A stretch of 64,000 bases of DNA from Isoetes taiwanensis (Eukaryota; Streptophyta; Lycopodiopsida; Isoetales; Isoetaceae): NCBI GenBank assembly GCA_021234155.1, contig JAJEKV010000080.1:3457867-3521866 (forward strand), written 5' to 3'. Within the stretch, counting starts at the first letter, position 1, and each line of letters opens with the position of its first letter. Shown here in pieces: positions 2,151 to 62,246 of the stretch. The notes beneath the pieces were generated by a model. It did not search any database and was not told the DNA's origin. It saw only the letters and a list, made by a program, of their open reading frames with translations. The translations under genes were made by a program, and so were the position numbers.

Positions 2151-2872
2151 ATGTGGTCAAATGATGACAATGTTTGGGATTGTGGTAGGCACATCGTGGT
2201 TGATTTGGGGTCATCTACAATGTCAGAGTGGGCAGATGATGATGATGATAATGGATTGAGCACACAAGAATCGAAGGCTAGGCACACACAGTTCTACAAT
2301 GTATCCTACTTTTCTATGCATGAAATATCTTATTTTGAAGTTAAATTATCTGAAAAAATCAGAGCCTTATCACAATAAAGCTTGGGTACAGAGAGGGAAT
2401 CACTGTTGGCAAAGAGGGTTCTGTTCAAGAAGGATTTGATCTCGGGTTTTCAGAAGCTTCTGTTGCAGGTTTCAAGTGGGGACTTGCACGAGGAATAACA
2501 AGGTATGTAATTCATGTTGTGCCTTTGTGGTTAAGAGAGGCGGTATATATCTTTTTTGCATTAGATATAATTGCGCTCTTTTGTAACAGTGCGTTCGCAG
2601 CATTGCCTGTTCCAGTTAAGGAATCACTGTTGCAAGATAGTATAGTGAGGGATAAGCTACAGTCTCTGCATTCCTGCATTTCTTCAATTTCTTCCAGGAA
2701 GGCGTTCGAAATATGCCATAAGCATCTTATGCCAAATGAAGGTAGTGACAACACATTAAAAGGTGGGACTACAGAGTTGCCTGGTGCTCCACAGCTACAG
2801 GACATAGAGGCATTCTTTCAAAGAGAACTTGGACTAGTGGAAGCAGAGGTGCAGGTTGATAAGTTATGTTGA
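2151..2872 (+). CDS. YAE1 N-terminal domain protein (Fe-S maturation adaptor), three exons
   Basis: Exons are 2151-2300, 2381-2502 and 2590-2872, totalling 555 nt and 184 aa. Introns are 80 and 87 bases with GT-AG ends, and phases match (phase 0, then phase 2: ACA AG|T GCG). The protein starts MWSNDDNVWD, has an acidic stretch (EWADDDDDNG), then the Yae1-type repeats of glycine-centred helices: YREGITVGKEGSVQEGFDLG followed by EASVAGFKWGLARG. This deca-GX3 pattern is typical of Yae1/Lto1. Yae1 with Lto1 recruits the apo-ABCE1 ribosome-recycling factor to the cytosolic Fe-S assembly targeting complex, as known from yeast. The tail (from LPVPVKESL on) is helical and resembles plant homologues. 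ATG 2151 was chosen because it is the only ATG opening a continuous exon with the right phase. The gene looks intact and is probably expressed. Confidence 0.85.
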
Positions 2873-10389: not shown

Positions 10390-10976
10390 TTAGACGCAGG
10401 TGTCCTAGTATGTGGTGGTAGTGAACTCTACTTCAAGATACTTGTATGCTTGTACTACCTCTCTGGTATGACCCTGATAAGTGAAATGAGGTTGTATGTT
10501 GTCTATGAGGATGATATGAAGAGTACCTTGGCCTTTGCCAAGTTGGCCCGCATTCTAGTGTCCTGACAGAAAGTGCTAAGCGCGTCCAGATGCTGTTGCA
10601 TACTTATTAAGGTGTGGTCTAACAGGTCCACATCATCTCTATATCAATTGTCTAATGATGTAATCAGCGAGGTGAGCCCCTTTCCTTGCGGCAAGCCATT
10701 CTTCCAGTTGATAAATATACAGTTCAAATAGCGTTGTTTGGGGGAGGGGGAGGGGAGGGTGATGGACATCCTTGCCGCACTCCCACACTGTTGTTGATAG
10801 GGTGGCTCAAAGGGAGGCATTCGAGCCATGACTCTTTCATACAACCTGTATACTATATTTTGAAACTCGTGTGCAGTGTACAGACTGTACGAGAGCTGCA
10901 CATGCCGCATGCAACCGGAAGGACAGTCATTTGCCAACATCATTGGAGATAGGCAAGGTTGTCCTCTCTCACCCAC
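10390..10976 (-). mobile_element. LINE reverse transcriptase fragment, inverted relative to its neighbour
   Basis: On the minus strand, about 10660-10560 reads RQLIYRDDVDLLDHTLISMQ and then HLDALSTFCQ, homologous to RQLIYADDVDLLAHTPEGMQ in the plus-strand LINE at 10876. The YADD catalytic motif is changed to YRDD, so the copy is inactive. It abuts or overlaps the other copy head to head near 10870-10976, giving an inverted pair. Confidence 0.65.
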
Positions 10977-12457
10977 ACTCTTTGGACTTTACATTGACCA
11001 GTTGGAAGCCTGGCTTGTTGCCAATAGGGGGGACGGTATACAGCTCTTGCACCAGGTCATCCGGCAACTCATCTATGCGGATGATGTGGACCTCTTGGCC
11101 CATACACCAGAGGGCATGCAGGCACACCTAGATGCCCTGGACACATTCTGCCAGGCGACGGACATGCGTGTCAACCTGGCCAAGACTAAGGTGGTCCTCA
11201 TATCCTCCTCACGTCATCCAGCACCTCCGGCGCTCACTTATCAGGGGCAGATGGTAGAGGTCACACCCAGCTACAAGTAGCTGGGGGTGGAATTTCCGTC
11301 CTCAATGTATTGGGATGCATCCATTCGCCTTCGGGTGACCTTGAGGTTGGAAGGCGTTATGCATAATGCAAAACAATAGTCGCAGGCAGTCAGATGATGG
11401 GGCCACCGGGTCCACATTTGTTCCGAACGGTGGAGCAGTTCTTACAGATGGGGTCGAGGTGTGGGGCCCGGTGGTGTCTTTGGCTTAATTTGGAGCGACT
11501 TGGAGCAGGTCGAAGGCATTTTTGACGCTGGCACTTGGGGTCAAGCCCCTCGTTCCATATCGGATCTTGTTGCAGGAGATAGGATTCATGCCCCCGCAAA
11601 GCATGCGCCCCTCGATAGACACATTGTTTATTTCCGAAGATGGCGGCGGCTTACACTCGGCTCCGCGACTTGGCTTCTGTTGTGGCGATGAGCCCATAGC
11701 GACTTCGGGGCTTGTTGGAAGGACAAGAGAGCCCGATTATCGGGCGCTACTGAAGAGGCACATAGGTGCGCCCAGTGCACAGGGCGTCGGTAGGGATAGG
11801 CTAAGGAGGTACTTGGACTCTTGCTTCTGGGGAAGCCTCGGGACCACAATGCTCGAAGCAGTAAAGATGGCACACTACAAACAAAGACATAAACCCCACC
11901 CGGTTCGAGGCCCACGGCTCTACAACGTTCTCGGTTGCCCATGAAGAAGCGCGGGATCATCGCGTCCATTCGAGCGGGGCCCACCATCTTCGGCTTGAGG
12001 CGGGTGTGGTGGATTGGAGAGCCGCCGGGGCGAGGCTTTGTCGGTGTTGCGGGGGGGGTTGTTGAGGATGAAAGCCATGCCTTCCGTGAGCTGTCCGGCC
12101 TATAGTCAAGTCGGGCTCGTTCGCCCTCTTGGTGCGACTGGTCGGCACCTTTGCGACGAAGCTACAAGACGCCGGTCGATTCGATCCCTTGGCTCCTACC
12201 TCCGGGGAGGTTTTGATCTGGCAGACTCACCCCCGTCCAAGACCTATTTGAGGTGCCGGGAATTCATGTGTATATGTATATTTGTACAGCTGCCAGCAGG
12301 CTTGTTGCTGCGACGGTTTTTCCCTCCTAATGGGGTTTTTTAATCCGGGTAGCAACGGGCTTGCTGTACCCATGTAATTTGGGTCCCATAGGCCGATTGG
12401 CCTCCGCGGACGATAAAAGAACCTTCCTTCCTTCCTTCCTTCCTTCCTTCCTTCCTA
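10876..12457 (+). mobile_element. LINE (non-LTR retrotransposon), 5'-truncated, RT to 3' end
   Basis: The frame from 10876 reads a reverse transcriptase core: RQGCPLSPTLFGLYIDQLEA (motif B region), then RQLIYADDVDLLAHTPEGMQ with the catalytic YADD, then NLAKTKVVL. The frame stops at 11278-11280, just before LGVEF of the continuing domain. Downstream pieces in other frames (11522-11944, LGVKPLVPYRILLQEIGFMP) belong to the C-terminal region. The element is GC-richer than its surroundings. It ends with GGACGATAAAAGAACCTTCC and a (CCTT)n tail at about 12424-12457 in place of poly(A), a tail style known from several non-L1 LINE clades. It contains frameshifts and is inactive. Confidence 0.75.
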
Positions 12458-13510: not shown

Positions 13511-16276
<2,766 letters not shown>

Positions 16277-31509: not shown

Positions 31510-32065
31510 GTTAGAATGGACAAAATTGCGCTTGGTGCATTTTGAAATTGCCCTTTCGGTTTCTTGTACATTTTTTCAAAACGCGCCAGGTGCGTGTAAA
31601 GTAAAACTTACAAAAAACACCCTTTAGAAAACACGCCTTTTGAATATAAAGCTTTCTAATTATTTTCTGGTGAGAGGAATATTATTTTTTAATTAGTTAA
31701 TTTCTCTCGTTCTAGTGCATTTCACATGGCTGATTCTCATTCAAGTATACTTCCTTTGGACGAGAATCAACGCTGGACTCCGTACAAGTTACTTCTTAAT
31801 TGTGTTGTTCAAAACCTACAAAAAGCGGTGGACAAGCCATTCGACAGTCTTTATGTAAGGCCATGGGAATGCTACCATCGTATCACGGGATTTATGCAAC
31901 TCCTAATGCTCTTGGTGTATCTCATGCCAACAAATAAATATGAGGATATGATTAGGAAGGCCAGAGATTGACGGGATACTCTGATATGGAGACTCGACAT
32001 TCCCAATGAATGGAAGGATGGTGTCATATCAGAGTGGTACAGTGGCCAGTGACTCGTTATCTTGC
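31510..32065 (+). other. Hypothetical element gene preceded by GCGCC palindromes
   Basis: ATG 31726 opens an 81-aa frame (MADSHSSILPLDENQRWTPY) to a TGA at 31969-31971. The frame continues with coding-like sequence (RDTLIWRLDIPNEWKDGVIS) to about 32050. I do not recognise the family. Upstream, TTGCGCTTGGTGCATTTTG (about 31528) and ACGCGCCAGGTGCGT (about 31582) are the same kind of palindrome as those at 46510, 48100 and 49480. This may be the start of another element in that group, truncated by decay. Confidence 0.4.
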
Positions 32066-32215
32066 TGATCAAGTGGGCCTGGGGGAAACTTAGATGTGGT
32101 TTTTTTCTGAAGTATTTTGGGTGTTTTTTTCCAAAAATTGAGACACATTAATTCACTGGACCATTGCCGATTGGATCAATGTTGATGCAGACGAAACTGC
32201 ATGTAGACCAGTGGT

Positions 32216-35280: not shown

Positions 35281-35551
35281 TCGAAGGTCACAAATCTAAG
35301 GCACGAAATTCAGGAGCGCAATCACCAAATTTAAGAGCATTTTTTAATAGGCTTTTACAGTAGTTGCAACTATTAGATGTTTTAAGGTCACAAATTTAGA
35401 GCGCACTCATCAAATTTAAGAACATTTTTTCATAGGCTTTTGTCAGTAGTTGCAACTATTAGATGTTTGTCACAAATCTAGAGCGCACTCATCAAATTTA
35501 AGTTCATATCTTAATAGGCTTTTGTAGTAGTTGCAATTACTAGATGTTCTA
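35220..35551. repeat. Minisatellite, about 84-98 bp unit, three copies plus a partial
   Basis: Units start at about 35286, 35384 and 35468. Each has GGTCACAAAT.TA, GAGCGCA.TCA.CAAATTTAAG, ATAGGCTTTT, AGTAGTTGCAA.TA and TAGATGTT. A partial copy precedes at about 35215. The array ends about 200 bases from the Helitron terminus at 35755. Confidence 0.8.
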
Positions 35552-35754
35552 AGGTTTACATTTTATAACTAATGGTTTTGTGCGATTTAGCCAATGAGTT
35601 CTTTGTAGATGCAAGGGACTTTGATGTTGGTATTGTGTCATCCTAGTTGAACATGTCATCAAATGATCTCCATGTTAGAGAACAATTAGCACAACGGGCA
35701 ACATGTAATTGTCACGTACTTGTTATGATTCTTCTTAGGTAACCTTCTCTCGTA

Positions 35755-36505
35755 CTAGTAACGGTGCCCAGCGTTGCTGGGCATTCGTTGGAAGTTTGTA
35801 AATGTTTTTATTGCAATAAGAAATGTGTGCAATAAGCTTTTATTATTGCATTATTATTCCCCCAAACGGCCTGTCATCTTGGCCTATCTTGCGTAGAACC
35901 CTGTCGACGGCAGTGAGTGCTTGCGTATGTGTCATCCCCATTTCGTCCCATACCATGATGCTTGCCTTTCTAAGTACCTCTGCTTGTTGGCTTGTGGCAC
36001 GTAGTGCAGAGGTTGCCTCTTGTGTGAGGTTGAGTGGTATTTCAATGTCGAATGAACTGTTTGTGCTCCCTTCAAGAGGAGGCTGGCAATGCCTGTCCAA
36101 GCTACTGATACAACACACACGCTGCATCCTCTTAGTATGCTGATCAGACTGTTGAAGAGGAATGTCTTGCCTGTGCCTCCTGGGCCATCCACATTGATAT
36201 GTGGGGCTTGATGCTGGCTGATTGCATCGAGGATAATGTCGGCTATGTGCTTCTGCTCCCTGTTGAGTTTGCCGTAGTTTTCCTGCCCTTCTTTCAACTC
36301 CTTTTCTTCCTCGAAGGTGGGTTCATTTGGGAGATTGCCTAGAATGTCTATCCGTGGTTCTGGCAGTCCAAGTTGTTGGCATGTGCAGCCGCTCATTTGG
36401 CTTCAATTATTTAGAATACAACAAAGTCGTATAGAAGTTTGTCTCAGTTCGGATCTTGATTATTGATGAAAGTTCTTGATATCTCACATTTTTTATATAG
36501 ATCAA
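35755..36505 (-). mobile_element. Helitron with truncated RepHel helicase
   Basis: On the minus strand the 3' end is hairpin GCCCAGCAACGCTGGGC (35782-35766) then ACCGTTA and CTAG (35758-35755) followed by T. This is the same type as the Helitron ends at 10263 and 56309. A candidate 5' end is TCTATATAAAAAATGTG at about 36502, preceded by A, which would fit A/T insertion. The short length shows a large internal deletion. The replication-initiator domain is missing. Confidence 0.6.
35843..36396 (-). pseudogene. Helitron helicase (Pif1-like) fragment
   Basis: Frame 36396-35932 reads KLNREQKHIADIILDAI and then VDGPGGTGKTFLFNSLISIL, the Walker A region of Pif1-type Helitron helicases. A frame change near 36120 leads into SALRATSQQAEVLRKASIMV and WDEMGMTHTQALTAVDR, with the Walker B DE. 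The coding stops at 35843, far short of the remaining helicase motifs, and the element end follows within about 90 bases. Inactive. Confidence 0.75.
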
Positions 36506-36780: not shown

Positions 36781-37038
36781 TGCCTACGTAAGAAATATCG
36801 ATCTAAGATATTAACTACCAATACATGTCATTCTTCTTCTGCCTCGTCGTCTACATAAATGCATCGTCTTATCCTTTTTTTTGCTGGTAACAAAATTGGT
36901 GACTCAATCAGCTCCATAAGATAGGCTGCTTGAGCTGCATAAGGTGGCAGCATGCTGTTGGCAATGGCAGATCAGTCAGTAATGTATGTGGAAAAAAAAA
37001 TATGAAAGTAATTGAAATATTTCTGAATGAAATACCAA

Positions 37039-40000
37039 CTAGTCATCTGGTTCATCCACGTCCTCGGCCACAATGTCTGCTTCATCAACATTTCCAGGAA
37101 TATCCTCAAAGGCATGCTCTTTGACAATTATCTCCTCATTGTTTGCGTGTTTGTATGAAAGATGATTGTCTTTGACATCTTCATACATGTCTCGGTCATG
37201 CTCTAGGCCGTAATAATGTCTACCACGAATGGCACATGCCTCCATGAGTGAACCCACACCAGGAATTAGATCCAACACCAACGAATTTGGGGGAACCGGA
37301 TATAATGAACTCCATGAAAAGAACTGACTTTTTTTTTTTTTTTTTTGAAGAAACGGAAGTTTTTATATTTTATATAATAAAAAGTACAGAGTACAATGTT
37401 TCAAACTTCACAGAGGATTACTACAGGAGTAACCTCAACCTCTTCATCCTCTATGAACTGAAACTTATTCAAATGAGTAACAGCAAAACAAAAGAAGTAT
37501 AAGATAGCAAAATATGGTTAAAGAAACCTGATTCTCAAAATGTTGTGTCTGAGGTGCATAGTAGAGTGCTGCATTGTCGGGGTCTGTAAGCCCCCTAGCT
37601 CGGCAATCTCCACTGAAAGGGTCACCCTGTAAGGGAGTCTTCCACTTCCATTGTCCCATCAAGGAGCCCATACATCCTTGATAAATAACCACCAAATCTA
37701 CCTGTATACTACCTTTGATGTAGCATAGAAGACCGGCTATACCACCAGCTGTCACTGCACATTTTACTCTTACCAGATACAAAGAAGTGAAAAAAAAGAA
37801 ACAAATCAGTGTAAGAAGAGCAGCCTGCCACTCTGCTCATAGAAGCTGCCACCGCTTCATGGATTCTGGTCTCTCAGCTTTACTCAAATAAATCACACGC
37901 GGAATTGCATCAAATAAAATGCTTTGATTGCTAGGGGTAGGCAATCCAATTGAAGCTGGCTAGACAAAAAATATGCCCAGCCGCCAGACTCCTCCCTCAA
38001 AAAGCCCGGTACAAGATGTGTAATCTTCCTGCCTACATCATATCCCTAGCTCGGCTATTCTATTCAATTCAAATCCAGCAATTTATTTGCATAAAAACTA
38101 GAAAGCCCCAAAAGTGCCTGAGTACCTGATCTGTTCTTAGTACACATTTTGTCTTTCCGCCAGCAAGAAAGGGTAAGAGTAAATCCAAGATACTTCACAG
38201 AACTGCAAGACTTTACCTTTTCAGATGAAGCTTACCCCGTACTAAACCAGAAAACATGAGCCTGCTTCAGTTTGATCCAATTTGCCTGCATAAATTCCAT
38301 CCATCCCAGGTCGACCCAGCCTCAAAGGAATCCTTCGAGAACTGCAAGGAAAGAGTGGGAAATGCAACCAAGACTGACCCAAAGTTGAAGATCGCCTACA
38401 GACTACATCCCTGGAAAAATCTGGAGAAAACCTGTGATAATCAATCTTGCGGTTAGAAAGCATCATGGCCTGGCATCCAACTCCAGATCTTTGCTTCATG
38501 CCTCGCTGCTAATCCGGAAGCAAGGTGAAGCGGCGGTAGCCTCATCTCCGCCACCGCCCTAGCCGCTGCCGCTTCCGCTCATACGATATCAATTTCATCG
38601 ATATATACTTTTCTCCAAAAGAACTGACTTTTCAAGATCACACCTGTCATTTTTTTTCTTCGATACAAATAACTTCTCTTCATCTGACAGGTAATGCACA
38701 AGTGTAGATGCATGCTGATTAAGGTCTGCACTGCTGAAGACATTCTTAGTGATACGTGGTGTTTTCAGCCCTGCCCTGGAATACACTGATAAGCAGAGGT
38801 GGTTATTGTTAATTGTACCAAGTTCATCTGTAGTGATCCCGAAGGGTGTGGAACTGTATATGTGGTACAGTCTCCTTCTCTGCAAATTTCTCTTCTTTGC
38901 ATTGTAATCGATATTAGGTAGCTTCTCATCCGTGCATATGACTATGAAGAAGCCACTATCATCCATACATAGGTTGGCAATGGCAATGGCCATGTCCTGC
39001 TACTGTAGAGACCTTAGTAGATCTGTTGACGTTCACATCCAGGGTATCATTATTATCTTCCAAATTCTCGACATTCTCTTCATTTGGAATGAGAGTTTCA
39101 CGTCTACTTTTTTTGCTTTTTTTTTTAATCTCTCCTTGCATTTTTTTTTTGTATTTTCCATCTCTGGACTTGACAAATCTTTAGAATTTGATGGCTTATG
39201 TGGATCTATATCTTTTTGAGAACATACTGCCCATCTGTCCTTCTCTTCCTTTGGATACTCACTTTCTGGAAAATCTAACCACCAGGGACACTCCTCAATT
39301 TCAAATTCTACTAACCTTGTATTGAATCTCATGTTGAGTTTATCTGAGTACATCCATCCTTCAGTTTGCTTCCATGGCAAGACAACACTTGATAGTAATG
39401 TAACTCAACAAGATTCTATGCTCGATTACCTGAAGACAGTTCTTTTAGTACAATTGAGAAGATCATGAGCATTATCGTAATCAACAGTGTGGGACATGTG
39501 CTTTTCATTGTTCACGAATATGTTTTTCCTGTACTCCATTTTCATGTAACGGAACCAGGTATGAGCAGTTTCTGTGGTGTTCTCTAAATGAACGAATTCA
39601 GGTTCGTCCTCTTGTATAGCAGTTAGAAGTTCCTTGCTTTTTTTCAGCAAATGCTCCAACCAAGTTTCTTTTTTTATCCATTCATGGAAATCCCTGTCAT
39701 TACCTGGCATTCTGTAGCTATTCAACAGGTTTGACTCAGTTGTGATTAGCAATATCCAATTGTTTCTAACATCATTGTCTACTGTTGCCTTGGCCATATC
39801 ATACAACTTCTCTAGTGTCAGCTTAAAATCTTTTGTGTTCACATCTCTAGTGGTTACTGCCTTAAGCCATGTGGGTCCCAAGCTAGGGCAAACAATTGCC
39901 AAGTACTTATGCAGCTTGTTTGTCCATCTTCTTCTAACTTCCTTCTCGGATTTTTCTCGTGCTTTTAATTTTGGCATTTTCTGTGTGTGGACCTTCAGCA

Positions 40001-41230
40001 ACAATTCAATGTCATTTTCAATATTAGCCTGCACATAGTTGCCATTAGTTATCACAACAATCGATAAATTATTTGAGTGTCAGATTTAACTTACTTTGTA
40101 TAAGATTTGTGCTAGCATGAATCTAGTCAGAGGGTACCAAGGTTCCTCTCCTAGGAATTTCACTTCTTTTGCTCTAGCTTTTGCTATTTCTTCTTCTGTC
40201 ACTTCTTTGGTAAACATTCTCAAGTCCTTGGTAGCCACTTGTGCACTGCATACAAAATATTCTTAAGTGTCTCTCGTACAACTCCTTTTTCGTTAAGTCT
40301 ACATGGAAAAAGCATTCATTTAGTACAAATAATGGGAAATAAATGATGACTAGTTTAAATTCTGAACTTACTCATTAATTCTTCTCATTGCGGTTATGAG
40401 TTCAGCATCTCTTTTTCTATCGACCTCCACAAAGGTTGCTTGAACTCTGATGTGCATGTTCGGGGCATATGTGTATCTCTCAGAAATTTCCTACATCCAT
40501 GCATTGGTACGATGGTTCCCGTCCCAGCACAAGAACATTTTACCTGATAGATCAGACCAATGCGGATTATTGGAAAGTTCCTGCTCAAAGTTTTCATTCT
40601 CCACTTGCCAATTGTCATCCCAAGAACTGATCAATTCCTCAGTAACAAGAGTCTCTTTACCCTTAGGTCCCTTTATAGACAATATGAATTGTCCCTTTTG
40701 CATAATATAACCATCTCTTCGTAGAGTCCACGCAGTTGTTGGCAGTTCGGTGTAAGCATTCTCACAGCCTCGTGTATTTGTATTCTGCATAATGGAATAA
40801 GGGGTGGAGGAGAATCCCTGTTAATCTCCAGCTTCTTTAATGTCTGTGATACTTGATTAATAATGAATGAAGCTGGTAGCTCATCATTGTCTCCTTCACA
40901 TTGTTGTGTGGCCCCAACACTATCCCCTCCATGCTGTTGCATGACATCAATGGTTTCTCCTTTACCTTCATCCGAGTTTACCACATTATCATCTTCCTGA
41001 ATTTCACAATTACGGGGAGTAGCCAAAAGAAAATGAGGTTCAGTGGCATCTACGGCATCAGAGTTAGTACTATGGGAGGCCATGTCTGTGCCAACATCAG
41101 TAGCCTCTGAAGTCATCTTTCTGTCAGTAATAATAGAATTCGACTGGGTGATAGTCAGAGATTGAGAACTGTCTTCAGAGTTTGTTGTTGTTGTCCTTTG
41201 TTTTCGAGGCTTTCTTGGTGGAGTTTTCAT
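37039..41230 (-). CDS. ParB-like plus N6/N4 DNA methyltransferase-like protein of a transposon, decayed
   Basis: Exons read down the minus strand: about 41230-40850 (MKTPPRKPRKQRTTTT, Ser/Thr and acid-rich), 40795-40382, 40340-40096, 40055-39427, 39400-39030, 39003-38620, and 37330-37039 beyond a LINE insertion. The second carries SGKMFLCWDGNHRTNAWM, the W-DGNHR core of ParB/sulfiredoxin-like domains. The sixth reads MAIAIANLCMDDSGFFIVIC. The last reads VPPNSLVLDLIPGVGSLMEA and CAIRGRHYYGLEHDRDMYED. This fits the SAM-binding motif of N6/N4 MTases of the class with motif I last (VLDxFxGxGS..EA...GR.Y.G.E.D). A DPPY-like motif was not securely seen. One in-frame TAG follows NAWM (about 40492), and a one-base frame change is needed near 38650, besides the LINE. 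The gene faces away from the transposase at 42461. The likely role is marking or binding element DNA, which is inference. Confidence 0.6.
37333..38616 (-). mobile_element. L1-type LINE insertion with 16-bp target duplication
   Basis: AAAAGAACTGACTTTT occurs at 37317-37332 and 38617-38632. Between them lies a 1.28-kb insertion that begins (plus) with a T run of about 18, the poly(A) of a minus-strand element. Its 3' end, ATAAAAACTTCCGTTTCTTC then A's, matches the LINE ends at 7120 and 22671. Its 5' part is GC-rich (GGCGGTGGCGGAGATGAGGC). The length is too short for ORF2, so it is an internally deleted copy. It splits the methyltransferase-like gene just before the SAM-binding motif. Confidence 0.85.
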
Positions 41231-41374: not shown

Positions 41375-42085
41375 TGAACGGCACCGTTTAAGATAATGTC
41401 GACCATAAAACTCAGCAATGAAAACTCGAACGGTACCGTTCAGGACTTTATGGAGAGATTGAATAGGCTAATTCGAACAGAAGACTTTGCAATGAAAACT
41501 CGAACGGTACCGTTCATGAATTTGTGGAGAGATTGAATAGGCTTCTTCGAACAGAAGACTCTGCAATGAAAACTCGAACGGCTCCGTTCAGGAATTTGTG
41601 GAGAGATTGAATAGGCTAATTCGAATAGAAGACTCGAACGGTACCGTTCAGGAATTTGTGGACAGATGAAATAGGCTAATTCGAACACAAGACTCTGCAA
41701 TGAAAACTCGAACAGTACCGTTTAGGAATTTGTGGACAGATTGAATAGGCTAATTTGTGGTCAGATTGAATAGGCTGATTCGAACAGAAGACTCTTCAAT
41801 GAAAACTCGAATGGTACCATTCAAGAATTTGTGGAAAGATTGAATAGGCTTATTCGAACACAAGACTATGCAATGACGGATTGAATAGGCTAATATGAAC
41901 AGGAAACTCTGCAATCAAAACTGGAACGGCACCATTCATGAAATTGTGGACGGATTGATTAGGCTTGTTCGAACATAAATCTGTATCGTGAAAACTCGAA
42001 CGGCACCGTTCGAGAAAGTGTGGATCGTTTGAATAGGCTTTCGTGAACATAAAATTGTATCATGTAAACTTGGACGGCACCGTTG
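41375..42085. repeat. Palindrome-centred tandem array between two divergent genes
   Basis: Ten copies of a unit of about 52-116 bases (mostly 60-75) carry a near-perfect palindrome of the form CGAACGG(T/C)(A/T)CCGTTCG. They start at about 41375, 41427, 41501, 41575, 41635, 41709, 41808, 41923, 41997 and 42071. The spacer includes AATTTGTGGA.AGATTGAATAGGCT.(A/T)TTCGAACA.AAGACT. The array fills the space between the starts of the methylase-like gene (41230, minus) and the transposase gene (42461, plus). A bidirectional promoter or a transposase/ParB-like binding array is a reasonable reading. Confidence 0.85.
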
Positions 42086-42460
42086 AAGAAATGAACGAAC
42101 TTGAGAAAATTGGACAATGAAATGTTTGCATTGCATTAGAAAGAAAAAATGTGATACCAACCTGTGTTCTTGCTCTCTGGCCTTGGTGATGGATCAATCG
42201 AAGAGCGCATCATCCGCTTCGGGTATAAGATTTACTGTTCAACCGATTCAAATGTTTTAATGAAAATACCCACTTATTATAATTAGGTGAGAATACTAAA
42301 ATGCATTATTTCTTGGTTAGTGGGATTGAAATTCGCTAGTCGTTGGCTACGTAACTGACAGTAGTGCACCCTTGAATTACGCAAACATAATTTGTACTTA
42401 ACCGTTGGGACTGTCATATTAAAATGTGTTTAAAGGGAAGTACAAATTTTACTTAGCCAT

Positions 42461-45400
42461 ATGGCGTCTTATCTCACAGTGAAAGCTTCAGGTTTACAAC
42501 AAATACTGTTGCTTCCTTTCCAAAACGGAGTATGTGAGATTAGTACAGCAGATTTGTCCAGAACTTTCAATGTACTACCTAGCAATTTATGTATGATTCA
42601 AAGTTCTACAGATGTGGAATCCAATGTAGCTAGCACTGTATTGTTGAATCTGTTAGTGCTTCTGGACTAGGAATTTTTAAAGTTGAGGAAAGAAATGGCA
42701 CGGTTGTGGAGGTACATGGTATTCCTGCTGAAGGCAAATCTCCTCTATGTCCAGTTGTTCTTGATTCACCCCATTCTTCTAATGGAGCAACTACATCCCA
42801 ATGCACCTCTACATACTTAAAGATAACATCATATCCCATTAACAACAAACTTAAAAAATTGTTATTGGAAATTGGAAAACCAAGGCAGGTGGATTTTTTG
42901 CCACAATATTATAATGGAAAAATTGTTTTTGAGTTGCCAGGTTAGTCCATCAGTAAAACCCCGATGGAAGGTATGCAACATTCGGTTGATCCACACGTAT
43001 GGACGCATGCCAACAGGACTGACATACCTAGTTTTGATGGGACAGTCAGGTTGTCATATTGTGGCAGTCACTTGCAATGTAAAAACATGTCTTGTGACCA
43101 TTTATTGACTAAAGGCAACCACAATGAGTTGCATTGGAGAGGTGCATTGCAGAGAAGACCTGAGATTGGTGAACTAACTTCATTCCATGGATCTATAAGT
43201 TGTGAATACTGTCATCTGCCACCAACTTGTGTGGCACGTTGTCTAGTGTCCATGTACTATTGTTTGCCTAACAGTTATAATCTCAAAGACAAGACTAGCT
43301 ATCCATACTGGTGAGCACACACATCCCATTAAAAAGGCAGAATGTAGAAGTCAAGTCAAGCAAATGCGGGACCTAGTTAACTCAGACACAACCTTACATC
43401 TTGGTGGGCCTAGACATAAACAGAATGAATTAGCTATGGACGAAATTGTTCGTTCAATTATGGGCTCCTCAGATGGAGACAGTGTTGAGAAGATGGATAC
43501 AGATCAAATAAACGAGTTGTTGACAAGGTTGGAACCATTATGCAATCAGAGAAGGTATGACATTGATATTACGTAATAAATTATATTAACAAGTTATTTG
43601 ATTTGTTTGATAAGAAAAATATTGCTTGTGTAGGTTGAAGAGATGGATTGATGATGCGAGGAGAAGAAATATGCAATGTTCAGATGATACTTTTGGTTTA
43701 TTGGAGCTAAAGAAAAGAAGCAAATATGAATATTTCCATGGATCTAAATTTCCTTACCAGCTTCATGATCCGCTCAATGAACGCTGTTACATTTTTAAAA
43801 TGTCTACAACTGGTCCTGGATCAGGGGTTGATTTGGTCAACAGGATGAGACCAACAGGTGATCTTAGCAACAGTTGGGTGCATTTTGATCACGTCAAACG
43901 AAGTCAAGGGTGGACAACATTAGCTTGTCACGTGTATGATCACAAGTAAGTGGTTTGCGAAAATCAAATGAAAAAAGTACATTGATAAGTTTTTAATAAT
44001 CTTGTTTTGCGTGCAGAATTAAAGCCCTGTTGACAATTGCGGTTTGTGACATGAAGACAGAGGATGCAGAGGCACAGAAAAAGTTTTGGAGGAAGCTTAA
44101 TAAGGTCATGGTAGCAAAAGGTTATTCAAAAGCTGAGTTTTTTGGGTTCATGGCAGACGAAGCTCAACCTAATTGGATTGCAGTCAGGGAAGTTTTCTTC
44201 AATGGGGAAACTAGACCCGAAAAAGAGTGTTCCTGTTACTTCCATTTCGAGCAATGCATGCATCGACATACAGAAAGACACTTGCCAAAGAAATATTGGG
44301 ACGCCCATAAGGATCTGTGTAGAAAATGGCATCAATCAGCAACTGAGGAGGAAGCAGATAAAATATACCACTCCATAATGGATTGGTGGGTGGGCAAGAC
44401 TACAGATAATCATATTAAAGTTTTGAGTTCTTGGCTATCATGGTGGCATCATAGGGTAAGCAGATGGGGTAGGTTTATGGTCAACAAACAGAATTGGCAG
44501 ACAACAGTACATATTCCACAAACAAACTTATCAGAGGCAAAGCACGGGAGTTGGTTAGCAGCATCAGGAAACAAGAATAATTTTTCCTTGTATGATGCCT
44601 CCCTCTTCGATCTCACAGAAGCTGTACTTCAGAGTACCAAATACAAATCATTTCTAGACTGCAACTACTTAGGTACTGGCCCAGGTGTATCAGATCTTTT
44701 TAATAGACTGCAAAATCGTCAAAGCAGTGGTGCCAAGGCTAAGGAGGTAACAAACATTATAAACTTGGAAGCAGAAATGGCAGACATTGAAGAACATGAC
44801 AGTGATGCAGGAGGTAACTTGAACACTGTGTACAAGAAGCAACGTTCCATAGACACAGTTGATCTCACAGCAGAATCAGGAACCCATCGTCCCGACAAAC
44901 ATGCAACTAATGTTAGCAGAGTATGTAAGGATGATCCTGTAGTGAGGACTCTTTTCAATGATTCTTTAGAAGAGAAGACTGTGCATAGGTCTCTTTGGGC
45001 TATTCGAAGAACAGAAGAAGGCAGTAAGGTCAGGTGTCAAGGGAGGAAGTCAGAACATGGAAAAAAATGTAATAATCCAATTAATGCGGGTATACAACCA
45101 ACAACTGCTCCTTGCTTTTATGGGTTAAGAAAATTCCGGGGACAACGAGTGTCACAAATGATGTGGTTCAGTCCTACTACAGTTGAATGCACATGGTTTC
45201 CAGATAAGTCTTTGGTGTGTCCCCCACAAAGACCACCATTATGGCCTGTGGATAAAGATACTGACTTGATGAATGAAGAGATTGAGAAACTCGGAGCAGC
45301 GGGCTTTTTGTTGGGTGGTAGATCTCAATCTAGCTTGACTGTAGCCAATGCAGCCTCGAGTATGCAAGCACGTAGATCCACCATGGCAGGGTCTGCTAGC

Positions 45401-45751
45401 TCTGTAAGGAGCAGAACTAAAATGACAAGGAAGGGGAAGGTTGTGAATTACAGGAAGGAAATGAATGGAGAAACGAAGGTCAGATTTGTGCAGTCAAAGA
45501 GAATGAAGATGGATTCTGTGCAAGAGAAGACCTACTCAAAAAATAAACATGTGGACTATGTAGTCAAGCGTGAAGATAGCACATACATTGTATCCATCAA
45601 GGATGAGCCAGAAACCTTGCAAGCACTTGTTGTACGTATACAATCAAGTGCTTGGAATCGATCCATTATTCGACCCTGCAGTGATCCAGCCAATGCTACC
45701 GGAAGCTGTGTTGGAGCGTATACTCCTGAAGTAGTTGTCAGTGGTAAATAA
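42461..45751 (+). CDS. MULE-like DDE transposase with zinc-binding region, decayed in N-terminal part
   Basis: The first part, 42461-42646, shifts frame to 42649-43288, and one in-frame TAG lies at 42943-42945. It contains RLSYCGSHLQCKNMSCDHLL and SCEYCHLPPTCVARCLVSMY, a cysteine-rich DNA-binding candidate. A further frame change near 43290 leads to RLAIHTGEHTHPI, the 'GxHxHP' step common before MULE catalytic domains. Introns at 43555-43633 and 43946-44016 are in phase. The catalytic region reads WVHFDHVKRSQGWTTLACHV, FFGFMADEAQPNWIAVREVF and CSCYFHFEQCMHRHTERHLP. D in HFDH and D in MADE are candidates for the DDE triad. The last 573 aa are open. The tail has a second Cys cluster (RCQGRKSEHGKKC) and is basic. 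The MULE-like assignment rests on this order. It could instead be a related, unnamed superfamily. Confidence 0.6.
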
Positions 45752-45759
45752 GTATATGC

Positions 45760-46500
45760 ATTGCTATTCTTTCTTCACTTTGGTTTACAGTTCGAGAACA
45801 GTTCTGATGTAAGTTGGCTGAGTTTATAAGTATCTAGTTATGCTGTCTTATTAATGAAAAGTAGTGAGCATGTGAATCAAATAAACAATTGCAAAGACAT
45901 CTGTCCTTTTCCCTTTGCATTTTTTGTACTTAAAACATTCTGGTTGTTTCAGATACAGTTCTGGTACAGCAAACAACCAATCATCAAATTTCATATTCCC
46001 ATACAATTCCATTGTCACATACAAAAAACCTAGCTCCGGCTCCTCACTAACTGCTCGCTTCATGGCAAAGGAATTGGGCGAAGGATTGGCCGAAGGAATT
46101 GAAATAGGGCGGAGGAATTGGGCGAAGGATTATGCGGACAATGGGCGGAGAATGGGCGCCAAGGGTGGAATGGATATAGGCTGGATTAGACGTGAAAATC
46201 GTAGGAATGATTCGAATTCCAGTCCTATCAACCATCATTAAATGCCATTATGTGCATGTCTCGATATTTGAGCCATGCATAATGCCATAAATATCCAATA
46301 TCTTCCTTTTTTAACGTTATTCCTAAACTATAAAAATGAACACCGCTATAATTCGAATTGAACATTCAATTAAATACCACAATGCTACGTCACACCACGT
46401 CGATAATTGGGATTTGAAAAAAAAACACTCCAAACCCTCCTCGAGAAAACCACGTAAGTGCCGACCTCAGTGGGCCTTTGTAGATATGTACAGCCTCATT
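45760..46500. other. Right flank of the transposase gene
   Basis: A small frame at 46060-46240 encodes a short repetitive peptide from GAATTGGGCGAAGGATT-type repeats (MAKELGEGLAEGIEIGRRNW). No terminal inverted repeat pairing with the left flank near 37000 could be identified by eye. Confidence 0.35.
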
Positions 46501-46504
46501 ATGT

Positions 46505-46625
46505 TAGTTTGCAAAGAACTCGCGCCTGGCGCATTTTGACACTAAATCAAGAATATGTACATCCCATTTTATGAATATTAAAACAATCTCATGCCTGACA
46601 CAATTTTGTACCGCAGTGCCTAATT
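46505..46625. repeat. GCGCC palindromes, group 1
   Basis: ACTCGCGCCTGGCGCATTTTG (about 46518) and a decayed CATGCCTGACACAATTTTG (about 46590). They are the same motif type as the intron array at 49400-49720. Confidence 0.6.
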
Positions 46626-48205: not shown

Positions 48206-49404
48206 TGTGAGTTAGTATATATTTTCGCATTTCAACATTAACATTATGCTATCATTCTGCAGGAACACAAAGGACAATCAAAAGGAAAACCAAACTCGGT
48301 CAAATATCTTCAGCCCAGAAAAAGCAAAGGACAGATGAAGACGTAACCGTTATAGACCTACAACATGTGTTGACGTTAGAAGATACATATGGAATAATAA
48401 AGGCTCAGGTAGAACCTCCCTGTCCAGAAGAAGATCTTATAGAGGGGTCAAAATGGTACGTCGAGATCTTCAAGACTAGTAGGAAGATAGATCTTATTTT
48501 TATGTCTAGGGTAAAAGAGATTGATCAAATGAAGAAGTTATCACATGCGAAGAATAGGGCGATTCATATTGACTAGTGTTACTTGAAGTGAGGCAAAAAA
48601 TAAGAAGAGCCTAAAGAAGATTAATCGCTACAGTTCTAGTTGTTACTGCCCTAAGATCAGACGACTCTGCCGACATCCTGTTCAAATTTGGTTGGACACT
48701 TGGCGAGCCCTTGGCGCCTAAAAGAATATGCGAAGGGCTTTCAACTGTACGACGAAACATCAACATGAGGCCCTTAGACAGTGTCTACATGCAGGCATTG
48801 AAGGATAAAAAGGATGCAAGTTCTTGAGGCAGGGACACTACAGAAGTCACAGCAGGCTTTACAAGTGATGATGACAAGGCCAGCAATTTGAGGCGATGAG
48901 CAAGCTCAAAAAAATATGCTGACAAGTATCCACTGGGCTTTAGCTTCACCCATCCCATCCACGTCGATAGGCTTTTCAGGTCCACTAAAGCTATTTATGT
49001 CAGCAGAAGATACGACAAGCAGCATTCCTTGGAAATAGTCAACATCATGATCGAAAATCCAAGGCAGGTACCAATGCCGGCAGATGTAGTGCCTTACGAT
49101 ACGAAGACGAGGAAGGTATTGATGTGGAACAAGCTGGATGACTTCAGCGACAACCAAGACGTACATTTCATGATAATAGATGGGCAGCACTCAATAGAGG
49201 CTCAGAAGGTTCTGATTTGGAAGGCACAGAATACTGAAAATCAGCAAATCTATAGGCTGCACTTGGTCAGAAACTGCCAGTTCCTGAGCGCTCAACAACT
49301 CCTGCCGAGCTAGCGAAAATCAGTGCACTTTTTAACAACATGGGAAAAACATTTCTGTACAAAAGGTAACTCTTTCTTCCCTCGCTTTTTGTTTTGGTAT
49401 TTGC

Positions 49405-49720
49405 AACAGGCGCGATTTGCCTATTCAGAAACTCGATATGTTTAATTGAATAGAGGTTTTTGGTTAGTCAAATCGCGCTTGACGCGATTTCTCTTTCATT
49501 TTGAAATCGCGCCTGGCACAATTTGTATATTCAGAAACGGGAGTGCTTTTCAATCAGTCAAAGCATTCTCTTTTTAGAATAGGCAAATCGCGCCTGGCGT
49601 GAGTTCCCTTCCATTTTGAAATCGCGCCAGACGCGATTTGCATATTCAGAAATGGGAGTGCTTCAACCAGTCAAACCAGTCTCTTTTCACAATATGCAAA
49701 TCGCACCTGACACAATTTAT
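49405..49720. repeat. Intronic array of AAATCGCG-n5-CGCGATTT palindromes
   Basis: AAATCGCGCTTGACGCGATTT (about 49480) and AAATCGCGCCAGACGCGATTT (about 49618) are perfect 8-base inverted repeats around five bases. AAATCGCGCCTGGC-type copies at about 49504, 49576 and 49696 are partly decayed. Each is followed by (T)ATTCAGAAA.GGGAGTGCTT or TTTCATTTTG, so the unit is a tandem repeat of about 65-75 bases. It sits in the intron following the DGQH exon of the decayed ParB-like gene. Confidence 0.8.
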
Positions 49721-60315: not shown

Positions 60316-62246
60316 ATGTTGAGGCCAACTTCTAGGATCCTAGCTGCTAGGGAGCTTTTTGATAAATATGTTGAATTCAATGCTGAGAATATGCCACATA
60401 AAAGTAGGAAAGATCAACAGGGAAAAATAGTTGTCGAGAAGAGATTGCCATCCCATTGTACCCAGAAGAGCATATTGGAGGAAGTGAATGCTTTGCTTCG
60501 AGAACTAATGGTAACTGCAATATCTCAACCCAGCTTTAGTAGACTATGGAGCAAGCACTTCAAGCATGTCACTATAGACACTTCGAACAACTTTGCAAAG
60601 TGCAATTTATGTGCTAAGTTGAAAGAGATTCTGGATAAGACCAAGCAACCAAGCCAAAGGGCTAAGATAAGGGAGCAAATGAAAGATCACATGACATACC
60701 AACTATCATGTAGATCCACTTATTGGATAGGGAGAACATTATCATGTTTGGAACCCAATAACTATGTTTGTATTATACATGACAAGATGGATCAATCGAA
60801 GACTCGTTTGCCACAGTATAGTTACATACCCAAGCAAATCAATATAGAGCTTATACTATGCAAATCTTTCTGACAGGTGCAACAGTGCATAACTTGGTGC
60901 CAATTTATTATGGCCATTTTAGTTTGCAATTGTGGAGTGATGGTCCTGATTTTTATATTCGAAGTGTGATGAGGTGCTTGAGGAACTATGAGAGTGGTTA
61001 TTCTGGTGACCTCCACAACCTCGGAGGTGGTAGCCAACCACTCTTCAGTGCATTGTTGGATAGAAAGCCTAATAATTTAGAGAAGTTTACTAAGGCAAGG
61101 TTTAGGAAGTCAGGTGCTTCTGAACACGTTGGAGCCTCAAGTTCACGTCCCCAACCTCGAGATCTACCACCAAATTTCCTCCTCCAAGTTGACAATTGTG
61201 GTGGACAGAATAAAAACAGGTATACGTTCTCATTCCTATCTTATTTAACAGCTGTGGGTGTCTTTAATAGAGTGAATTTAGGGTTCTTAATGCCTGGACA
61301 TACTCATGAGGATGTGGATGCATTGTTTGGGAAGTATAGTGCACGGTTGAAATCTCAAACTGTGACCAATCTTCCTAGACTAATGGAAGTTCTTAGTGAA
61401 TGCATTTCACCTTCTCCTATAGGGTTGATCATACAAGAGGTGCCTGATTGGAAGAATTTTATCGAAGCTTATGCTCTTGATATGGAAGGTCAATCTAGAC
61501 CTCTTCAGTACACTTTCTGGGTCATGGAAAATAAGCCAATAATGAAATGGAAGATGAGACCTTCAGATGATAAATGGAGGCCAGATGAGGGAGTACCTAT
61601 ATGGCACGAAGATGAAAATGGTAAACCTAAGATTCCCAGGGGTTAACCAAAAGCTCTTAAGTCTTTTGCAGAGGTGGATTCATTGCAAAGCACATTGGAC
61701 GACATTTCTGAATACATCAAGTATTGAAAAAATAACCCTGATGATACCAACCTTGCATTGATAGATTATTGGATACAGGTACATGGATTATTGGGACAAG
61801 TAGACATATCCTCTGATGAACTGAAAGATTGATGGCTACCTAAGTCGAGGTGGAGAGACGTGATAACACCTGAGGAAGTTGATGATGTGTTTAGTAGTAT
61901 TCGCAAGTCGATGGCTCCTCCAGCTGCTGAAAAACATTATGTTGGTCCTAGAAAAGGAAGGCCTAAATATCTCAGGCTGGAGGATTATGATTCCAAAGAT
62001 GACTTGCTTTGCCATCAATTTGCACTTATAGTACAAGAGCGCAAAGAGATACACCCTGTGTGGATGGGTTACACCATCTTAGATGTTTACAAAGAAGTGG
62101 GTGACTGCAATGTGAACAAAGTTCGTGTGGAGTGGTGGTGTCCAGTGCACCAGTTAAATGCAATGGCAGAGGATGAAAGATATAGAGACTGTTGGACAAA
62201 GAAATGGAAGAAAAACCCTATTGAAGGGATGATTGGGTTGAGTTAG
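60316..62246 (+). pseudogene. DUF7869-type transposase-like gene, decayed
   Basis: Coding runs 60316-60865 in one frame, then 60858-62246 in another, with three in-frame stops in the second part (61644-61646 and near 61727 and 61832), so about four breaks. The first part has CNLCAKLKEILDKTKQPSQR and YVCIIHDKMDQSKTRLPQ. The second has FLLQVDNCGGQNKNRYTFSF, followed by LGFLMPGHTHEDVDALFGKY. 'DN..GQNKN' and 'GHTH.D.D..F' are hallmarks of the DUF7869 family, common in mobile elements of seed-free plants and some animals and probably an RNase H-like nuclease. The C-terminal part (VRVEWWCPVHQ) is also typical of these proteins. Inactive copy. Confidence 0.7.

Follow-up and report, generated by a model that had tools for sequence, protein, structure and literature searches.

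The minus strand of positions 41230 to 37039 carries the relic of a eukaryotic gene, and its last part (37316 to 37039) is, by profile comparison, the C-terminal part, with motif I, of an amino-methyltransferase. We interpret the relic, with moderate confidence, as a decayed accessory gene of a DNA transposon that joined a ParB-like front to an amino-methyltransferase back and lay head to head with a transposase gene. The encoded protein would have combined a ParB-like DNA-binding segment with a DNA methyltransferase of the N4-cytosine or N6-adenine (amino) type. By analogy with an element published from a brown alga, the gene most likely belongs, in decayed form, to an already known kind of transposon accessory genes. 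Positions throughout are those of the window, the whole stretch of 64,000 nucleotides that was analysed.

Layout and breakage of the minus-strand gene

The gene, the array next to it and the neighbouring gene are laid out as follows.

41230 to 40676, minus strand: N-terminal reading frame, low-complexity and acidic, with an ATG at 41230, in an open frame of 41278 to 40676
40820 to 40372, minus strand: frame with CWDGNHR (motif at 40529 to 40509), a TAG at 40493 to 40491 and a phase change relative to the upstream frame
40371 to 40246, minus strand: first intron-like interval, frame-keeping, GTAAGT...GCAG
40245 to 40095, minus strand: exon-like open frame, AQVATKDLRMFTKEV...LAQILYK
40094 to 40029, minus strand: second intron-like interval, frame-keeping, GTAAGT...GCAG
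40028 to 39429, minus strand: linker region, a long open frame without family match in Pfam or NCBIfam
39404 to 39036, minus strand: open frame that includes EIEECPWW (ECPW from 39293), the best weak motif IV candidate
38999 to 38617, minus strand: open frame MAIAIANLCMDDSGFFIVIC...KNDRCDLEKSVL, which runs open over 38999 to 38598
38616 to 37333, minus strand: insertion, about 1,284 bp long, with poly-T at an edge (poly-A when read along the minus strand) and flanked by a 16-bp duplication
37316 to 37039, minus strand: C-terminal methyltransferase segment with motif I and the stop TAG, matched by profiles
41376 to 42085, no strand assigned: ten palindrome copies, GAACGG(T/C)ACCGTTC with at most 3 mismatches, within a tandem repeat of about 74 bp
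42434 to 45751, plus strand: divergent gene, by eye a putative transposase, with phase changes and stops upstream

This copy cannot yield a whole protein, because an in-frame stop, several breaks of frame and an inserted piece interrupt it. The long upstream frame (41278 to 40676), which near its end holds IPLCRIQIHEAVRMLTPNCQQLRGLYEEM, where the ParB-like region may start, differs in phase from the CWDGNHR frame; the latter is open over 40820 to 40494 and then meets the in-frame TAG at 40493 to 40491. Positions 40795 to 40382 had been proposed as a single exon in an earlier note on this DNA, a proposal that the phase change and the stop rule out. The two intron-like intervals, recognized from the sequence, keep the frame. 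Past 39429, stops interrupt the frame of the gene, which is open again over 39404 to 39036; a second phase is also open over 39180 to 38962, overlapping that stretch. The segment at 37316 to 37039 and the frame that precedes the insertion differ in phase.

The methyltransferase segment

Motif I, VLDLIPGVGSLMEACAIRGRHYYGLEHD, lies at 37278 to 37195 on the minus strand; like CWDGNHR, it stands in a minus-strand frame where the earlier note had placed it. In PHROGs, the segment matched phrog_3008 over 47 residues (E = 2.3e−6) and, weakly and with the C-terminal part only, phrog_498 (E = 0.013 to 0.051); a phrog_498 match spanning both the ParB and the methyltransferase parts was not found. The Pfam family PF01555 (N6_N4_Mtase) aligned with the segment at the C-terminal end of the profile (180 to 219 of 221, E = 0.0099), under the curated cut-off.

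The segment was also compared with a phage reference set of 92 ParB-methyltransferase relatives (84 distinct), made up of 2 annotated phage genes, each with the two domains by Pfam, and 90 sequences from viral contigs. The methyltransferase profile built on this set has 91 rows (83 distinct) and the ParB profile has 92 (81 distinct). Against the methyltransferase part, the open reading frame at 37042 to 37362 scored 90% and ranked first among the 87 open reading frames of at least 90 residues in the window, the next reaching 2.3%. A longer read-through scored 87%, and the best of its 60 shuffles reached 3.9%. By these comparisons, chance cannot plausibly account for the match of the motif-I segment, and the methylase end claimed in the earlier note is borne out by the phrog_3008 match and the phage profile. 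When the methyltransferase read was used as a query, tblastn against phages returned phage DNA methylases from E = 2e−3, and the PDB search ranked methyltransferases, DpnA among them (E = 0.57 to 1.1), below unrelated glucanotransferases (E = 0.1).

The catalytic motif [DNSE]PP[YFWH] was found in none of the three minus frames of 37000 to 41230, whereas 91 of the 92 phage relatives carry the canonical motif IV, [DNS]PP[YFW]. The best weak candidate for this motif in the window gene is the ECPW noted above. Because the copy is broken, an intact relative may carry the canonical motif IV.

An insertion that split the gene

Judged by its form, the stretch of 37333 to 38616 is a retroelement that inserted into the gene and split it. 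A 16-bp duplication, AAAAGAACTGACTTTT, flanks it at 37317 to 37332 and 38617 to 38632 and rules out that the insertion was part of the gene. Because of this target duplication, both flanks of the insertion were contiguous DNA beforehand, and continuity of the DNA across the insertion is supported. Matches of the insertion to the rest of the window are limited to 33 and 20 bases, and a search with one of its open reading frames gave no family assignment.

Continuity of the protein is modestly supported at best. A read-through over the insertion, with X at the breaks, is collinear with PF01555 (E = 4e−4, 20.8 bits, with a cut-off of 26.7 bits); its phases were picked by eye to fit the profile. 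A shorter read-through reached 19.6 bits and the segment alone 14.1, while two upstream sequences scrambled by hand, which are not exact permutations, gave 15.5 and 13.7. Earlier joins brought no gain (15.9 bits in Pfam), and the segment with its own upstream codons scored 16.3 bits. The frame at 38617 to 38999 has no methyltransferase profile match on its own, and in the read-through its end falls into collinear alignment ahead of motif I. In a programmed control with the phage profile, 49 of 1,000 shuffled upstreams equalled the real one; scores were 0.3% for the upstream frame by itself, 84% for the read-through and 90% for the segment alone. The control with 1,000 shuffles backs continuity less strongly than the hand-scrambled one.

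A divergent neighbor and a palindromic array

The relic and the plus-strand gene at 42434 to 45751 lie head to head, and both are decayed. The last exon of the neighbor is open for 583 codons (44000 to 45748). The relic had been described as divergent from a transposase; the divergent coding gene is present, but it has no transposase family match in Pfam or PDB, and its identity as a transposase is therefore unproven. Structure prediction of the neighbor exon from the single sequence gave nearly all helix at a confidence too low to be usable (pLDDT 44), and a pattern-based search for it in viral contigs was unproductive. Both genes may have belonged to one element. Among the 25 listed of 56 inverted pairs in 30000 to 62000, none was convincing as terminal inverted repeats; a few weak pairs that bracket both genes (e.g., 32096 to 32130 with 46419 to 46453, 35 nt, 74%) look no better than the rest.

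Between the two genes, the palindrome GAACGGTACCGTTC occurs in 10 copies versus 0.75 expected at up to 3 mismatches, and at the same threshold no copy was found in the rest of the window. No other centre in the repeat comes close to its self-complementarity, with 59 of 70 pairs against 39 for the next; its conservation is only tied second among 61 repeat windows. The observed/expected ratio of CpG is 1.31 in the array versus 0.50 in the window.

Such an array could be a mere promoter or a subterminal repeat bound by the transposase and unrelated to the ParB-like protein, an explanation to which we give almost an even chance. Subterminal repeats of CACTA-type elements are bound by the transposase, and tandem repeats are common near transposase genes. 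The latter fits a plain promoter or subterminal repeat, as does conservation that extends beyond the palindrome, and nothing direct counts against it. This explanation bears on the array alone and leaves the identity of the gene untouched.

If the gene encoded a ParB-methyltransferase, as we prefer to read it, the array is a hint of its target. The ParB-like part would hold the protein on the DNA of the element, perhaps at the palindromic array in the promoter region that the two genes share, and the methyltransferase would mark that DNA. The mark, in turn, could serve control of expression, recognition by the transposase, or host silencing. We regard as speculative and distinctly unlikely a more specific version, a land-plant transposon family in which the ParB-methyltransferase binds a centromere-like palindrome array in its own bidirectional promoter and writes 4mC or 6mA there; if true, this would be an element outside algae that marks itself at a target site that can be identified. 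Non-standard DNA methylation and binding of a ParB-like protein could be sought specifically at the array.

A candidate ParB-like segment

The candidate for the ParB-like part is CWDGNHR (40529 to 40509, minus strand), which we take to be a ParB/Srx-like (sulfiredoxin) signature. It is the single occurrence of DG.HR in the six frames of the whole window, and it is followed by HIRVQATFVEV...MRRIN, presumably a ParB-like pattern as judged by eye. The uniqueness of DG.HR is suggestive only with regard to ParB identity.

Profile searches, which all used one broken sequence as the query, returned no ParB match. The CWDGNHR region has none in Pfam or NCBIfam; PHROGs gave a "peptidase" family at E = 0.47 in one search and nothing in another; PDB gave nucleases only (E = 0.15 to 0.26), over the stretch that precedes the motif; and HMM-HMM comparison with the phage ParB rows (92, of which 81 are distinct) scored 0.2%. 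Of the ParB-methylase fusion that the earlier note had proposed, the methyltransferase half stands, and the ParB half may hold but has no profile support. Single-sequence structure prediction of the CWDGNHR frame was uninformative (pLDDT 31). DNA coding for the heptapeptide occurs at 8 loci in viral contigs, in frames of 8 to 169 codons, and PF02195 was not found in two viral records. Because these 8 loci look like chance, CWDGNHR alone proves little.

The gene could instead have encoded an amino-methyltransferase without a ParB domain, with CWDGNHR as a chance resemblance and the N-terminal part as some other DNA-targeting region. The profile results and the chance-like viral loci favor this alternative. 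The uniqueness of DG.HR in the window, with what by eye looks like a ParB pattern after it, speaks against it, as does a published fusion with the same opposite-strand layout (PMC12477816). We consider the alternative somewhat unlikely. A ParB-like fold at the front of the methyltransferase is plausible, given how the parts are ordered and given the parallel in print.

The order of parts is that of phage ParB-methyltransferases (phrog_498; OQ627803.1, MW202489.1): as checked in two phage proteins with Pfam and PHROGs, a ParB-like signature is followed by a long linker and by motif I at the C-terminus. Unlike the window gene, the 2 tested phage proteins have clear PF02195 and PF01555 matches.

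Relation to known systems and origin of the gene

The closest parallel by description comes from the brown alga Ectocarpus. In a 2025 paper (PMC12477816), the 21.5-kb Sola1 element Sola1-1_Ec32 is reported to encode, on the strand opposite to the transposase, a protein of 1104 residues that combines a ParB-like domain with a methyltransferase, whose predicted product is N4-methylcytosine or N6-methyladenine; transposon cases from green and red algae are mentioned alongside. The Ectocarpus gene and ours share an amino-methyltransferase, a claimed ParB-like segment and a position opposite a transposase, which in our case is putative, but the window copy is broken and its ParB and transposase assignments are putative.

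Bacterial-type amino-methyltransferases also occur elsewhere in eukaryotes. The bdelloid N4CMT and the Marchantia 4mC methyltransferase resemble the window gene in this respect. They differ from it in being described in PMC8885841 as host enzymes; N4CMT has a chromodomain, and the Marchantia enzyme is said there to lack additional N- or C-terminal domains.

A fusion of this kind had seemed undescribed in land-plant transposons. Among the literature matches listed (titles and abstract openings, with subscription journals sparsely covered), there is indeed no land-plant case of a ParB-methyltransferase transposon. The claim of novelty is nevertheless weakened, because the same fusion opposite a transposase is published for the brown-algal Sola1 element and green and red algal cases are cited (PMC12477816). 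New aspects could be the possible plant host and, as a candidate target, the palindromic array. The intron-like intervals, the reverse transcriptase piece, the aspartate aminotransferase exons and the CpG ratio of 0.50 agree with a plant and equally with other eukaryotes. Should the host be a land plant, transposon-borne DNA-marking proteins would be extended from algae to plants. To our knowledge, such proteins have so far been described for algae.

The relic might also be a former host gene, or a bacterial or viral gene captured once, that lay outside the element of the neighbor. This would agree with the failure to find element ends and with a neighbor that is only a putative transposase. 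It would leave the head-to-head layout, the repeat array between the genes and the decay of both genes as points against it. Scans for close relatives, which are seeded with short exact peptide patterns and would overlook distant ones, speak against it as well: no relative was found among 2 stretches in viral contigs for the ParB-linker read, 23 stretches in viral contigs for the motif-I end, or 43 stretches in bacterial and archaeal genomes for the methyltransferase read. With the intron-like intervals also arguing against a recent arrival by contamination, we hold a host or one-off captured gene to be very doubtful. Recent bacterial contamination itself we reject, given these intervals and the lack of a close bacterial or archaeal relative in the pattern-based scans.

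Other features of the window

Several other coding remnants lie in the window. A PIF1-like helicase fragment at 35932 to 36402 on the minus strand (PF05970, E = 1.3e−19) is possibly derived from a Helitron, and a reverse transcriptase fragment lies at 10864 to 11277 on the plus strand (PF00078, E = 8.7e−13). Aspartate aminotransferase exons (14161 to 14914, minus strand) and a piece of a Yae1_N gene (2354 to 2869, plus strand) look like ordinary eukaryotic host genes, and a DUF7869 gene occupies 60822 to 61643 on the plus strand (PF25273, E = 4e−37). An 82-bp tandem repeat of 3.1 copies lies at 35297 to 35555. Rfam and tRNA scans of the window found nothing.

On the plus strand, a coding stretch with FMIIDGQHSIEA in broken surroundings lies at 48900 to 49310. 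It came top of the 87 open reading frames against the phage ParB profile, with a score of only 13.7% over 12 columns that lie away from FMIIDGQHSIEA. Near this gene there is a second repeated pseudo-palindrome, AAATCGCGCC.GGCGCGATTT, at 46517 and at 49470 to 49639, with weaker copies at 31523, 31578, 48119, 48173, 49398 and 49698. At up to 3 mismatches, it has 9 strand matches in 5 places, compared to 0 in 100 shuffles.
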